Source of the DNA: Candidatus Borkfalkia avistercoris
GTDB taxonomy: Bacteria > Bacillota > Clostridia > Christensenellales > Borkfalkiaceae
Direction: 5' to 3'
DNA length: 48,536 nucleotides
NCBI GenBank assembly: GCA_019115995.1
Contig: DXCL01000031.1
Span: forward strand, 1 to 48,536
Of this stretch, positions 10,475-25,569 are shown in pieces. Both the position numbers and the translations under genes were made by a program. The notes beneath the pieces are model-generated. The model did no database searches, was not told the origin of the DNA, and worked only from the letters and a program-made list of their open reading frames with translations. Within the stretch, counting starts at the first letter, position 1, and every line of letters begins with the position of its first letter.

Positions 10475-10600
10475 ATGAAGCAAAGAGTTCGCGTGTACGA
10501 CCCGGAAGGGGTGAGAACGAGAGAGGAAAGGGAAAGTTTTGTAAAAAAATTTTCTCCGGAAGAGGCAAAAAACGCGGAGGGGATACATGGCGTCCGGTGA
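10475..10600 (+). CDS. Possible 41-residue ORF overlapping the spoVAC start
   Basis: An ATG-initiated frame encodes a 41-residue, highly charged peptide (including EERESFVKKFSPEEAKNAE) whose stop lies 14 bases inside spoVAC. Its amphipathic, Glu/Lys-rich composition looks protein-like and the overlap would suit translational coupling. No strong ribosome site precedes it and I know no family match. It may equally be leader sequence. The rest of the 10377-10586 gap shows nothing else I can name. Confidence 0.15.
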   Translation: MKQRVRVYDPEGVRTREERESFVKKFSPEEAKNAEGIHGVR

Positions 10601-11120
10601 AATGAAGTCGGCGCAGAATACCGCCCTGCAAAAGGGAGGCCAGTCGGTGGCGGGCGCTTCGTCTAACGTGCCCGCGTCGCAAGGGGTCAACCAAAACTAT
10701 CTCAATTACGTCCGTTCCTTTGCCGCGCCCACAAAGCATTTTCATAATTGTCTGCGCGCCTTTATGGTGGGCGGCGGCATCTGCTGCGCAGGGCAGTTCA
10801 TACGCGTGATGCTCGAAAACTGGGCGCGCCTGTCCGGAGACGAGCTTGCGGGCGCGGTATCCGTCGTGCTCATCTTTTTGGGGTGTCTTCTGACCGGCCT
10901 CGGCGTGTACGACAGGATCGGCAAAGCGGCGGGCGCGGGTTCCATCGTGCCCATTACGGGTTTTGCCAACAGCGTCGCCTCGCCCGCGCTCGAATTTAAG
11001 GCGGAAGGGCTTGTAACGGGGCTCGCGGCAAAAATGTTTGTCGTAGCGGGGCCGATCATCGTGTACGGCGTTCTTTCGGGCGCGGCTGTCGGGCTGATCT
11101 ATTATTTTTTAGGCTTGTAA
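10587..11120 (+). CDS. spoVAC: Stage V sporulation protein AC
   Basis: SpoVAC is an inner spore-membrane channel component of the SpoVA system, which moves Ca-dipicolinate into and out of the spore core. The 177-residue protein has a polar N-terminal ~50 residues and then the recognisable family core: NCLRAFMVGGGICCAGQFIR, LLTGLGVYDRIGKAAGAGS, VPITGFANSVASPALEFKAE, and a last hydrophobic segment with AKMFVVAGPIIVYG. Three to four membrane segments are visible. A GGAGGGG site precedes the ATG. The usual partners spoVAD and spoVAE do not follow; a terminator closes the gene, so it is transcribed alone here. Confidence 0.92.
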   Translation: MASGEMKSAQNTALQKGGQSVAGASSNVPASQGVNQNYLNYVRSFAAPTKHFHNCLRAFMVGGGICCAGQFIRVMLENWARLSGDELAGAVSVVLIFLGCLLTGLGVYDRIGKAAGAGSIVPITGFANSVASPALEFKAEGLVTGLAAKMFVVAGPIIVYGVLSGAAVGLIYYFLGL

Positions 11121-11128
11121 GCTGAGGG

Positions 11129-11154
11129 GCGCGAAAAATCATCGCGCTCTTTTT
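11129..11154 (+). terminator. Terminator after spoVAC
   Basis: GCGCGA (11129-11134) pairs with TCGCGC (11142-11147), followed by TCTTTTT. The stem is short but GC-rich and correctly placed. Confidence 0.6.
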
Positions 11155-11193: not shown

Positions 11194-11222
11194 TTGCTTT
11201 TTCAAAAGGGTTATGGTATACT
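11194..11222 (+). promoter_or_regulatory. Promoter of the structured RNA
   Basis: TTGCTT at 11194-11199 and TATACT at 11217-11222 are 17 bases apart, with an upstream TGG giving an extended -10. Transcription would begin about 11229, exactly at the foot of the long hairpin. Confidence 0.7.
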
Positions 11223-11229
11223 TATATCT

Positions 11230-11369
11230 GCGCTATAATTTAATCACCACTCAGTAGGTTACATCGGCACAGGTGTACCCTTTATTTCCTATTGAGTGGA
11301 AATTATAGCGCAACGAATTAAGGGTTACATTCTTTGCGGGCGTTCCCTTAATTGGGAGCGCTCTTTTTT
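11230..11369 (+). ncRNA. Structured RNA of unknown class (leader or small RNA)
   Basis: Two stacked stems form a long hairpin. The foot is 12 perfect pairs, GCGCTATAATTT (11230-11241) with 11300-11311. The upper stem is 12 pairs with one G-U, CCACTCAGTAGG (11247-11258) with 11288-11299. They are separated by a five-base bulge, AATCA. The apical region contains GGTTACAT (11257-11264) and GTGTACCC (11273-11280). Downstream, AATTAAGGG (11316-11324) pairs perfectly with CCCTTAATT (11345-11353). That pairing excludes a second hairpin, 11338-11347 with 11354-11363, which ends in six T residues and is a typical terminator. GTGTACCC could also pair with GGGTTACAT at 11322-11330. The layout resembles a riboswitch with antiterminator and terminator, but a terminated small RNA is equally possible. 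I do not recognise the class. Confidence 0.6.
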
Positions 11370-11384
11370 ATGCCGAGGTATACC

Positions 11385-13004
11385 ATGGAAAAAACGCAGA
11401 ACAAAGTGCTGTGCAGGGTCAGGGACATTTTAAAAACGTCGCTGGATACCGCGGAAAGAGAATGCCGGCTGTTTTGGGAATATATCCGTCGGAACTATCT
11501 TTCCTTAGCCGTTTTCAGCGCGCTTTATTTGCTCCTGTTCGGGAGCTGGCTGTATCATACGAATCCGCGCGTCGATACCGACGCATTGATCAATGTTCCG
11601 AACAGTTATTTTAATTGGGAAGTTATCGGAAGACAATTCGGCGTTTTTACGAAATATGTATTCGGCTTACAGTGGTTCGATCCGCAGTTTGCGGCGTTTG
11701 CGGGCTATTTTCTCTTCTGCGTTGCGGGCGTCCTGTTCGGGTATCTGTTCTGGCGGTGTTTGCGCGAGAAAGGAGCGCTTTGCGCCGCATTCGCTTTGGC
11801 AATGTTTGCTTCGCCCATCATGGCGGAGCAGTATTATTTTGATTTGCAGATATTCGAGATCGCCTTGGCTTTTATCCTGTGCGCGGTCTCGGCCGGCCTC
11901 ACGCTGTACGGCGCTTTTCGCCGCCGTTGGTTTTCTCTCGTGCTCGCGGCTCTGGCGCTGCTTTGGTCTGTGGGGACTTATCAGAGCTTTGCGTTTTTAT
12001 ACGTCGCGCTGATCGCGTTCTGCTTTATGCTGCTGTATCGCAGATACACCGTTTTTAAGGAACGTACCGTTTCTGTCGGGCAATACGGCGCGGCGGCGGG
12101 GCTTTCCGTCGCGGTGTTTGCGGCGGCGGTCATCGTCTATTGCGTGATCACGTATTTCTGGTTTTCGGGGAACGCCTATGCGCAGGAGCAGCTGCGCTGG
12201 TTTTACGATCCGCTGCCGCATATACGCCGTATCATCGGAGAAAATATGCGGGAAGGCTTCACCGGTACGGGCATTTATTATACGGCATTTTACGGAGTAT
12301 TTGCCTTGCTTGCGGCAGGGGTTTCCGTCTGGGACGGAGTCGTTTCAAAAAACAGGTTCAGCCTCGTATATGTTGCGGCGGCAATATTTTTGCAATTCGT
12401 GCCTTTTCTGCTCACCGTGCTGTTCGGCGGCGTTAAGCCCGTTCGGTCGCAGTTTACCTATTCCTTCGTGCTGGCGGCGGACATGCTCTTTTTGGCGAGC
12501 AGACCGTGGAAGTATAAGCTGCACAGGGCTTGCAATTTCGGCACCGTGTTTATCGTATTGGCGGCAGTGGCGCTCTTTTCGCAGTTGCAGGTGACCGCCC
12601 GCCTCGTCTACACCGAAAATATCCGCGCGCAGGAGGATCTGCGCGTGGCAACGGAAATCGAGGAGGAGATCAACCGCCTTTCCGATCTCAACAAACCCGT
12701 CGCATTTATCGGGGAATATGATCAGAAGCTGAACAATGCCTGTTACACCCCGCAGCATGTCTATGACGGAGTAACTGTAATCGGGTATTCGGTTTTTAAT
12801 TTTTTCATATCCAGAAACGATAATTATTATGAAAATTCCAACCGCATTTGTTCGTTTTTGCAGACGGTGGGATTTTCCTTCCAACCGATCTCGGCGGAGT
12901 TGATGGCGGAGGCGAACGTAACTGCGCAGTCAATGCCGTGCTGGCCGCAGGCGGGCAGCGTCGTAGACGCGGGCGCGTACACGGTCGTCAAATTTTCCGA
13001 ATAA
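11385..13004 (+). CDS. GtrII-like polytopic membrane protein
   Basis: This protein of about 539 residues has roughly ten hydrophobic segments. It resembles GtrII-type glucosyltransferase-domain proteins, which are thought to use undecaprenyl-linked sugars on the outer face of the membrane. Supporting features are the conserved-looking early stretch HTNPRVDTDALIN, with acidic residues in the first periplasmic loop, and the topology. The ATG at 11385 with GAGG at 11375-11378 is preferred; ATG 11370 and a TTG at 11352 lie within or against the terminator hairpin of the upstream RNA. The C-terminal ~130 residues are soluble. The substrate and acceptor are unknown. A role in cell-surface glycan decoration is inferred. 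Confidence 0.6.
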   Translation: MEKTQNKVLCRVRDILKTSLDTAERECRLFWEYIRRNYLSLAVFSALYLLLFGSWLYHTNPRVDTDALINVPNSYFNWEVIGRQFGVFTKYVFGLQWFDPQFAAFAGYFLFCVAGVLFGYLFWRCLREKGALCAAFALAMFASPIMAEQYYFDLQIFEIALAFILCAVSAGLTLYGAFRRRWFSLVLAALALLWSVGTYQSFAFLYVALIAFCFMLLYRRYTVFKERTVSVGQYGAAAGLSVAVFAAAVIVYCVITYFWFSGNAYAQEQLRWFYDPLPHIRRIIGENMREGFTGTGIYYTAFYGVFALLAAGVSVWDGVVSKNRFSLVYVAAAIFLQFVPFLLTVLFGGVKPVRSQFTYSFVLAADMLFLASRPWKYKLHRACNFGTVFIVLAAVALFSQLQVTARLVYTENIRAQEDLRVATEIEEEINRLSDLNKPVAFIGEYDQKLNNACYTPQHVYDGVTVIGYSVFNFFISRNDNYYENSNRICSFLQTVGFSFQPISAELMAEANVTAQSMPCWPQAGSVVDAGAYTVVKFSE

Positions 13005-25493: not shown

Positions 25494-25569
25494 GGGGATG
25501 TAGCTCACCCGGTAGAGCGATACGTTCGCAACGTATAGGTAGTCAGTTCGAGTCTGATCATCTCCACCA
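25494..25569 (+). tRNA. tRNA-Ala (anticodon CGC)
   Basis: The 76-base sequence folds into a full cloverleaf. The acceptor is GGGGATG/CATCTCC with the G3-U70 wobble that is the alanine identity element. The D arm is GCTC/GAGC, and the anticodon stem ATACG/CGTAT holds the loop TTCGCAA, giving anticodon CGC for GCG codons. The T arm is GTCAG-TTCGAGT-CTGAT. CCA is encoded at 25567-25569. It is a single-gene unit with its own promoter and terminator. Confidence 0.95.

Follow-up and report, generated by a model that had tools for sequence, protein, structure and literature searches.

Strand-exchange platforms of transcriptional riboswitches (PMC9756952, PMC10907184, PMC7707468), such as those of Bacillus subtilis yxjA and pbuE, combine a leader, an intrinsic terminator and a co-transcriptional competition between strands. 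In platforms of this type, one strand of the aptamer P1 helix is shared with the switch. T-box leaders (RF00230) are likewise terminator/antiterminator leaders of Firmicutes, and ANTAR-target and PRD/LicT leaders are hairpins that block an overlapping terminator. Riboswitches for c-di-GMP occur in several copies per genome upstream of surface-protein genes. Here we describe an element that is likely, in the absence of transcript data, to be a cis-acting transcription attenuator of a strand-relay design and a member of a large promoter-leader family of Clostridia. It resembles the yxjA and pbuE platforms in its leader, its terminator and its proposed strand competition. Unlike them, it keeps P1 outside the switch and draws its anti-antiterminator from the apical hairpin, and it has no known ligand.

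The leader RNA and its promoter lie at 11194-11369 on the forward strand of the window (the whole stretch of Candidatus Borkfalkia avistercoris DNA that was analysed, 48,536 nucleotides), the leader itself being promoter-proximal at 11229-11369 (Table 1). The promoter, called good in the preliminary description, has an extended -10 (TATACT at 11217-11222, with its TG at 11214-11215); its -35 is weak (3/6 to consensus) and was absent from the output of a simple promoter scan. Transcription is predicted to start at about 11229. The preliminary description had also placed two stems, two mutually exclusive hairpins and a pairing between a loop and the switch, and its element coordinates all held on inspection of the window sequence. 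The first stem, given as a perfect 12-bp helix, proved slightly longer (P1, 13 bp), and the second, also of 12 bp, was confirmed (P2), as were the antiterminator and the terminator. The loop element GTGTACCC (11273-11280) pairs as proposed with GGGTTACAT (11322-11330), with one bulge, and the full computed loop+L:S duplex exceeds this contact (11264-11287/11314-11341, -18.6 kcal/mol).

Table 1. Features of the leader locus, in window coordinates.
Feature	Position	Strand	Details and basis
Promoter	11194-11222	+	-35 TTGCTT at 11194-11199, 17-bp spacer, extended -10 TG-TATACT at 11214-11222
P1, 5' arm	11229-11241	+	13 bp with 11300-11312; fold and covariation
5-nt bulge at the P1/P2 junction	11242-11246	+	Fold; 143 of 173 copies could be parsed with a bulge or asymmetric loop on the 5' side
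P2, 5' arm	11247-11258	+	12 bp with 11288-11299; fold and covariation
Strand a, 5' side of apical hairpin P3	11255-11266	+	Overlaps the top of P2
Apical loop and strand L	11264-11287	+	Partner is a (P3) or S
P2, 3' arm	11288-11299	+	Fold and covariation
P1, 3' arm	11300-11312	+	Fold and covariation
Switch strand S	11314-11341	+	Partners are loop+L (proposed OFF) or, via 11316-11324, T (proposed ON)
Antiterminator hairpin	11316-11353	+	9 bp, 11316-11324/11345-11353
Intrinsic terminator and T6	11338-11369	+	10 bp (11338-11347/11354-11363), 6-nt loop; T6 at 11364-11369
GtrII-family glucosyltransferase gene	11385-13004	+	PF14264, E 1.9e-19; 539 aa

The computed fold energy is -60.4 kcal/mol, compared with -32.6 kcal/mol (sd 3.8) for 200 shuffled sequences, none of which equals it (z -7.4). 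The reverse strand also folds well (z -6.1), which is to be expected of inverted repeats; we assign the RNA to the forward strand because the promoter, the T-run and the gene all lie on it. Since the element is conserved in relatives, as shown below, a chance origin is ruled out. Within the window copy, the a:L duplex (11255-11266/11271-11282) is computed at -10.0 kcal/mol, and the terminator hairpin at -18.2 versus -10.5 kcal/mol for the antiterminator. The downstream gene had been described as GtrII-like, and this held; its likely start by the RBS rule is the ATG at 11385, which lies 15 nt beyond the T-run, while the listed ORF opens at a TTG at 11352. Upstream lies a gene (10587-11120) that we take, by resemblance, to encode a SpoVA-type sporulation protein. 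It is followed immediately by a terminator-like hairpin of its own (11124-11152), and the promoter-leader unit therefore probably stands alone.

The statement that the element matches no known class held against Rfam. At the gathering threshold, Rfam 15 places no family at the leader in the whole window and returns only a tRNA (25494-25566) and a genuine T-box leader (RF00230, 22161-22422, 117.2 bits); thus, a T-box in the same window is detected, though no T-box match falls at the leader. In 20 relatives sampled at family, order and class level, no family was found at the RNA, and the only match was one tRNA. The best sub-threshold match at the leader, to the DUF3800-I RNA (RF02969), is a weak full-length alignment to 11281-11373 that scores 17.9 bits where the gathering threshold is 44.2 (E 4.8), which is chance level. 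In E-value mode, 12 loci gave six sub-threshold matches, five of them to microRNA models; the only one to overlap the RNA was MIR1428 on L160 (39.1 bits against 79, E 0.00058), and a weak match to c-di-GMP-I-GGC on L155 (E 0.19) lies outside it. We therefore reject membership in a known Rfam family. We met no description of the RNA in the open-access literature that we searched, including passages of PMC11109978, PMC8632094 and PMC8040213 (supplements excluded); the last reports 3161 candidates, among which a fragment of the leader family may be present. Judged against Rfam 15 and the open literature without supplements, the family is likely to be undescribed. The element is real, and the preliminary description understated it: it is very probably one member of a large and apparently undescribed family of attenuator leaders.

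Conservation of the element is seen at several taxonomic depths. Using blastn on 60 relatives, we found copies in 17 of 36 genomes of the same genus (E <= 1.1e-6) and in none of 24 of the same order. A search of public genome contigs with a loop pattern returned 31 stretches, the great majority in Clostridia or Firmicutes MAGs and three on contigs named Candidatus Borkfalkia; one match, in Longitalea, is likely to be due to chance, because it is not recovered by the first covariance model. This first model, built from seven sequences, recovered further diverged copies, several of them in tandem; whole genomes were then searched with a second model, built from 36 sequences. Matches were obtained in 31 of 40 genomes of the genus (E <= 0.01; three only at E 5e-5 or weaker), 170 of 301 genomes and 13 of 18 genera of the family (E <= 0.01), 46 of 297 genomes of the order (E <= 1e-4; 30 of them outside the family) and 36 of 341 genomes of the class (E <= 1e-3; 32 of them outside the order). 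Every draw includes the genome of the window, which was the single match among 299 genomes of the phylum draw; the other 298, of which nine or more belong to its own class, gave none. Searches over more than 40 genomes used stricter filters, and weak matches were lost.

Copy number reaches 10 per genome, a value held by three genomes of the family draw, while the genome of the window has one copy. This single copy, together with the persistence of pairing among other copies despite differing stem sequences, led us to reject a mobile repeat. Phage cargo as the main home of the element was also rejected, on the basis of pattern searches of viral contigs that gave no match for the type I pattern and one for the class-level pattern. 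A class-level copy is present on an IMG/VR contig (L264:1047-1207, reverse strand, 59.4 bits), and the module may thus ride on phage-like DNA, which remains a possibility; an uncharacterised ORF of up to 205 aa overlaps the 3' end of this leader and continues downstream. In six tandem pairs (L040, L042, L045, L048, L071 and L074), a type I leader ends 56-102 nt before a type II leader, and the type II copy (e.g., L048:5211-5351) has its own promoter-like sequence and is followed by a surface-protein gene. Further close pairs of leaders occur on L136, L177, L178, L219, L224 and L247.

The position of the promoter is fixed relative to the RNA. In 142 of 173 copies, the 5' end of P1 follows the best -10 at a distance of 5-6 nt, a spacing seen in 17 of 516 control windows. 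A -35 matching at four or more of six positions is found in 128 copies, with a 17-bp spacer in 114 of these, and the extended -10 TG is common. Because the covariance model begins at P1, this register is independent evidence that most distant matches are real.

The leaders also precede genes. An RBS and a same-strand ORF start are found within 160 nt of the leader in 136 of 170 copies, versus 36 of 168 controls taken upstream on the reverse strand; the median distance is 28 nt among the copies with a gene, 34 copies have no clear gene within this range, and three of the 173 were left out for want of sequence. A terminated small RNA had been offered as the simpler alternative. In favor of an independent small RNA are the compact promoter-to-terminator unit, the strong terminator and the promoter-like sequence carried by each tandem copy. 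Against it are the close downstream genes and the antiterminator pairing, which is kept specific across divergent copies (see below) and would have no role in a plain small RNA. We consider an independent small RNA unlikely, and the reading as a leader held over it because of the excess of downstream genes over the control.

The downstream genes are diverse, with 127 of 136 non-redundant by 4-mer overlap. A lipobox-like N-terminus is encoded by 58 of the 136, compared with 34 of 300 other ORFs. We scanned 117 of the non-redundant genes; ten were excluded on visual inspection because the short ORF or the gene call looked doubtful. The downstream proteins, the long ones cut at 450 aa, were aligned solely to carry out these family scans. 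Matches were to LRR_5 of the BspA type (26), Listeria-Bacteroides repeats (7), Zn_Ribbon_1 (5) and LytTR (2). Look-alike proteins of 53-67 aa, in two class-level families, lie behind several copies (L173:4292-4486, L169, L170, L174 and L199), and small cysteine-rich proteins of 61-82 aa lie directly behind others (L164:4227-4472, L157, L167 and L188). One protein of each kind was scanned, those of L173 and L164, and neither had a Pfam match. Ribosome-mediated attenuation through a leader peptide was also considered. Possible start codons after position 8 of S are common but mixed among the 173 RNAs (AUG in 48, otherwise GUG in 79, otherwise UUG in 27, none in 19), and for this reason, judging by start codons alone and not by reading-frame conservation, we regard such a peptide as unlikely.

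The P1 and P2 stems covary across relatives. In a structure-free MAFFT alignment of 25 copies, made from sequence only, nine of the 13 pairs of P1 have changed on both sides and 94.3% of cells are paired; for P2, both-sided change is seen in 10 of 12 pairs, but only 63.5% of cells are paired, the alignment being faulty in this region. A model-fitted alignment of 36 sequences (A5), which is biased toward the structure, has 96.3% of cells paired overall and 96.2% in the main P2 helix, with both-sided change in 11 of 13 pairs of P1 and 11 of 11 of the main P2 helix; sliding this alignment by one column lowers pairing to about 40%. In the 25-copy set, the antiterminator is paired in 88.6% of cells with both-sided change in two of nine pairs, and L:S, among these type I copies, is paired in 88.2% of cells with no both-sided change in 10 pairs.

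To examine the alternative pairings of S, we used an alignment-free test in which the strands of 173 distinct RNAs (what remained of 193 matches once duplicates and one match in antisense were removed) were paired with their own or with swapped partners. Neither L:S nor S:T was part of the models that found these members, a few of which are doubtful or degenerate (L203, L122 and L123). For L:S, the mean energy was -10.67 kcal/mol for native, -7.44 for swapped and -5.14 for shuffled partners, and the corresponding values for S:T were -13.35, -8.23 and -6.98 kcal/mol. The native duplex was stronger than the mean of the swapped ones in 151 of 173 RNAs for L:S and in 165 of 173 (a fraction of 0.954) for S:T. 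At the levels of genus, family, order and class, a:L, L:S and S:T each beat swaps made within the group (p <= 1.3e-3), with p <= 1.8e-4 at all four levels for L:S and S:T, and with a:L weakest at the class level (p 1.3e-3); these p-values ignore shared ancestry. Both alternative pairings of S are thus specific across taxonomic levels.

The extended loop+L:S duplex behaves similarly, with means of -14.56 (native), -10.48 (swapped) and -8.00 kcal/mol (shuffled), and with the native form better in 156 of 172 RNAs. When the loop is tested by itself for pairing with the tail of S, the result is mixed: the native pairing is better in 93 of 172 overall, being favorable in the genus (32/41) and order (27/42), nil in the family (22/45) and reversed in the class (12/44). 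We therefore claim only the extended pairing and not a toehold made by the loop. By eye, at least five sequence versions preserve the alternative pairings, among them loop/S combinations of GCAUAG/CUUUGC, GCAU/AUGC, GCCAA/UUGG and UAAAAG/CUUUUU. According to the preliminary description, a known Rfam hit, or relatives in which the alternative stems do not covary, would have refuted it. No Rfam family reached its threshold at the RNA, and the stems and the alternative pairings passed, the support for the two alternative pairings coming mainly from the comparison of different sequence types. The L:S pairing would form a pseudoknot, which is proposed here without a model of its geometry. Downstream of the T-run, a GCCCGCA-like segment looks by eye able to pair with a UGCGGGC before the terminator (L038, L044, L047, L049, L052 and L058); across 172 RNAs, the mean energy of this duplex is -8.4 kcal/mol, versus -5.7 for shuffles.

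With mutually exclusive antiterminator and terminator hairpins before a gene, both of them conserved, the element has the arrangement required of a transcription attenuator, regulated termination itself being inferred. We propose that it works as a relay of the strands a-L-S-T-T', in which transcription would start at the base of P1, and P3 (a:L), P2 and P1 would fold before S emerges. In the OFF state, S would invade the apical hairpin and pair with loop+L, leaving T free, so that the terminator forms and transcription stops. In the ON state, the apical hairpin would be held closed, S would pair with T, the terminator would be blocked and the gene would be read. The conserved loop would join the pairing with S. 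P1 and P2 would stay formed as spacers with the bulge between them; among the 143 copies in which a 5' bulge was parsed, the length of P1 falls at 11-14 bp in 124 and that of P2 at 10-14 bp in 112, and two arms of similar length on either side of a bulge could return the apex to the foot of P1, the point from which S starts. The order of events, the assignment of ON and OFF, the fold-back and the existence of a factor (a small molecule, protein or RNA) that sets the choice are all inferred. Of the two competing hairpins, the terminator is the stronger in 135 of 173 copies, pointing to a default OFF state, an inference that rests on energies.

The preliminary description had suggested a riboswitch or a protein-sensed leader; the leader part is supported, and riboswitch status and a ligand have not been shown. 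A new class of small-molecule or ion riboswitch, in which a ligand on P1-P2-P3 fixes P3 and so sets the relay, would be a special case of the strand-relay explanation. The coupling of an expression platform to a structured domain that is conserved meets a criterion for riboswitches, and the terminator with its antiterminator, the conserved loop and bulge, and the many copies per genome before genes with a common theme all speak for this reading. Against it, the conserved loop sits within the duplex with S, so that its conservation alone requires no ligand; few conserved unpaired bases remain by eye, and the loop sequence varies by type (GGCAU, GCCAA, GGUAAAAG). On balance we lean slightly against a new riboswitch class, while noting that there are no ligand-binding data and that a ligand would be needed to place the RNA among riboswitches. 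For the genus, we set c-di-GMP aside as an unlikely ligand: the leader has no Rfam match to these riboswitches, and GGDEF (PF00990) was found in 0 of 40 draft genomes of the genus, the only level searched, with 8 of 14 control genomes positive.

A protein-sensed leader, whose hairpin is recognized by an RNA-binding protein or a polymerase-bound antiterminator, is a less likely possibility that is also compatible with a strand relay. It is favored by the presence of one leader family over many genes, by the fixed promoter register and by the P1 sequence UGCGACACAA, which is common by eye at the class level; against it, P1 varies freely within the genus of the window. A RAT leader of the PRD/LicT type was rejected, since the LicT/SacY-type CAT_RBD domain (PF03123) was found in 0 of 40 genus genomes, with 4 of 14 control genomes positive. 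The distribution of ANTAR proteins does not follow that of the RNA, which tells at most weakly against ANTAR control. Each is found in 31 of the 40 genus genomes, but in differing sets, with the RNA and no ANTAR match in G007, G008, G024, G025 and G030, and with ANTAR and no RNA match in G004, G010, G011, G014, G019 and G022; these drafts are incomplete, and the ANTAR search was positive in 0 of 14 control genomes.

Returning to the strand relay, we compared its codes among copies. For 80 RNAs in 26 genomes with at least two fetched copies (not every copy per genome was included), partners swapped within a genome retained 88% of native energy for loop+L:S, 78% for S:T, 75% for a:L and 50% for P1. 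With partners from other genomes, the values were 73% for L:S, 63% for S:T, 56% for a:L and 46% for P1. Copies within a genome thus share much of the loop/switch code and keep P1 private; copies of different type are less compatible (e.g., in G028). One reading is crosstalk, in which terminated leaders act in trans and their apical loops pair with the S strand of siblings, terminating these too. The retention of loop+L:S energy within genomes favors it, but part of this is plain conservation, as the 73% retained for L:S with other-genome partners indicates, and the same pattern would follow from slow drift under a four-strand constraint, from a shared trans factor or from recent copying of leaders. 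We consider crosstalk unlikely, and also unlikely is the bolder reading of a genome-wide switch network that coordinates surface-protein expression with no small-molecule ligand. If it were true, up to ten modules per genome, with private P1 stems and a common loop/switch code, would recognize one another in trans within a type, and types I, II and III, some of them in tandem, would be partly separate channels in gut Clostridia.

The proposed strand-relay leaders constitute an RNA family without an Rfam entry that extends across a class of gut Clostridia for which most knowledge comes from metagenomes. In their design, the proposed anti-antiterminator is the apical loop and not the closing stem. 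The loop code common to copies raises a testable question of RNA crosstalk, and the genes downstream, which encode lipoproteins, leucine-rich-repeat adhesin-like proteins, GtrII and LytTR regulators, make the family a handle on the control of the surface in these bacteria.
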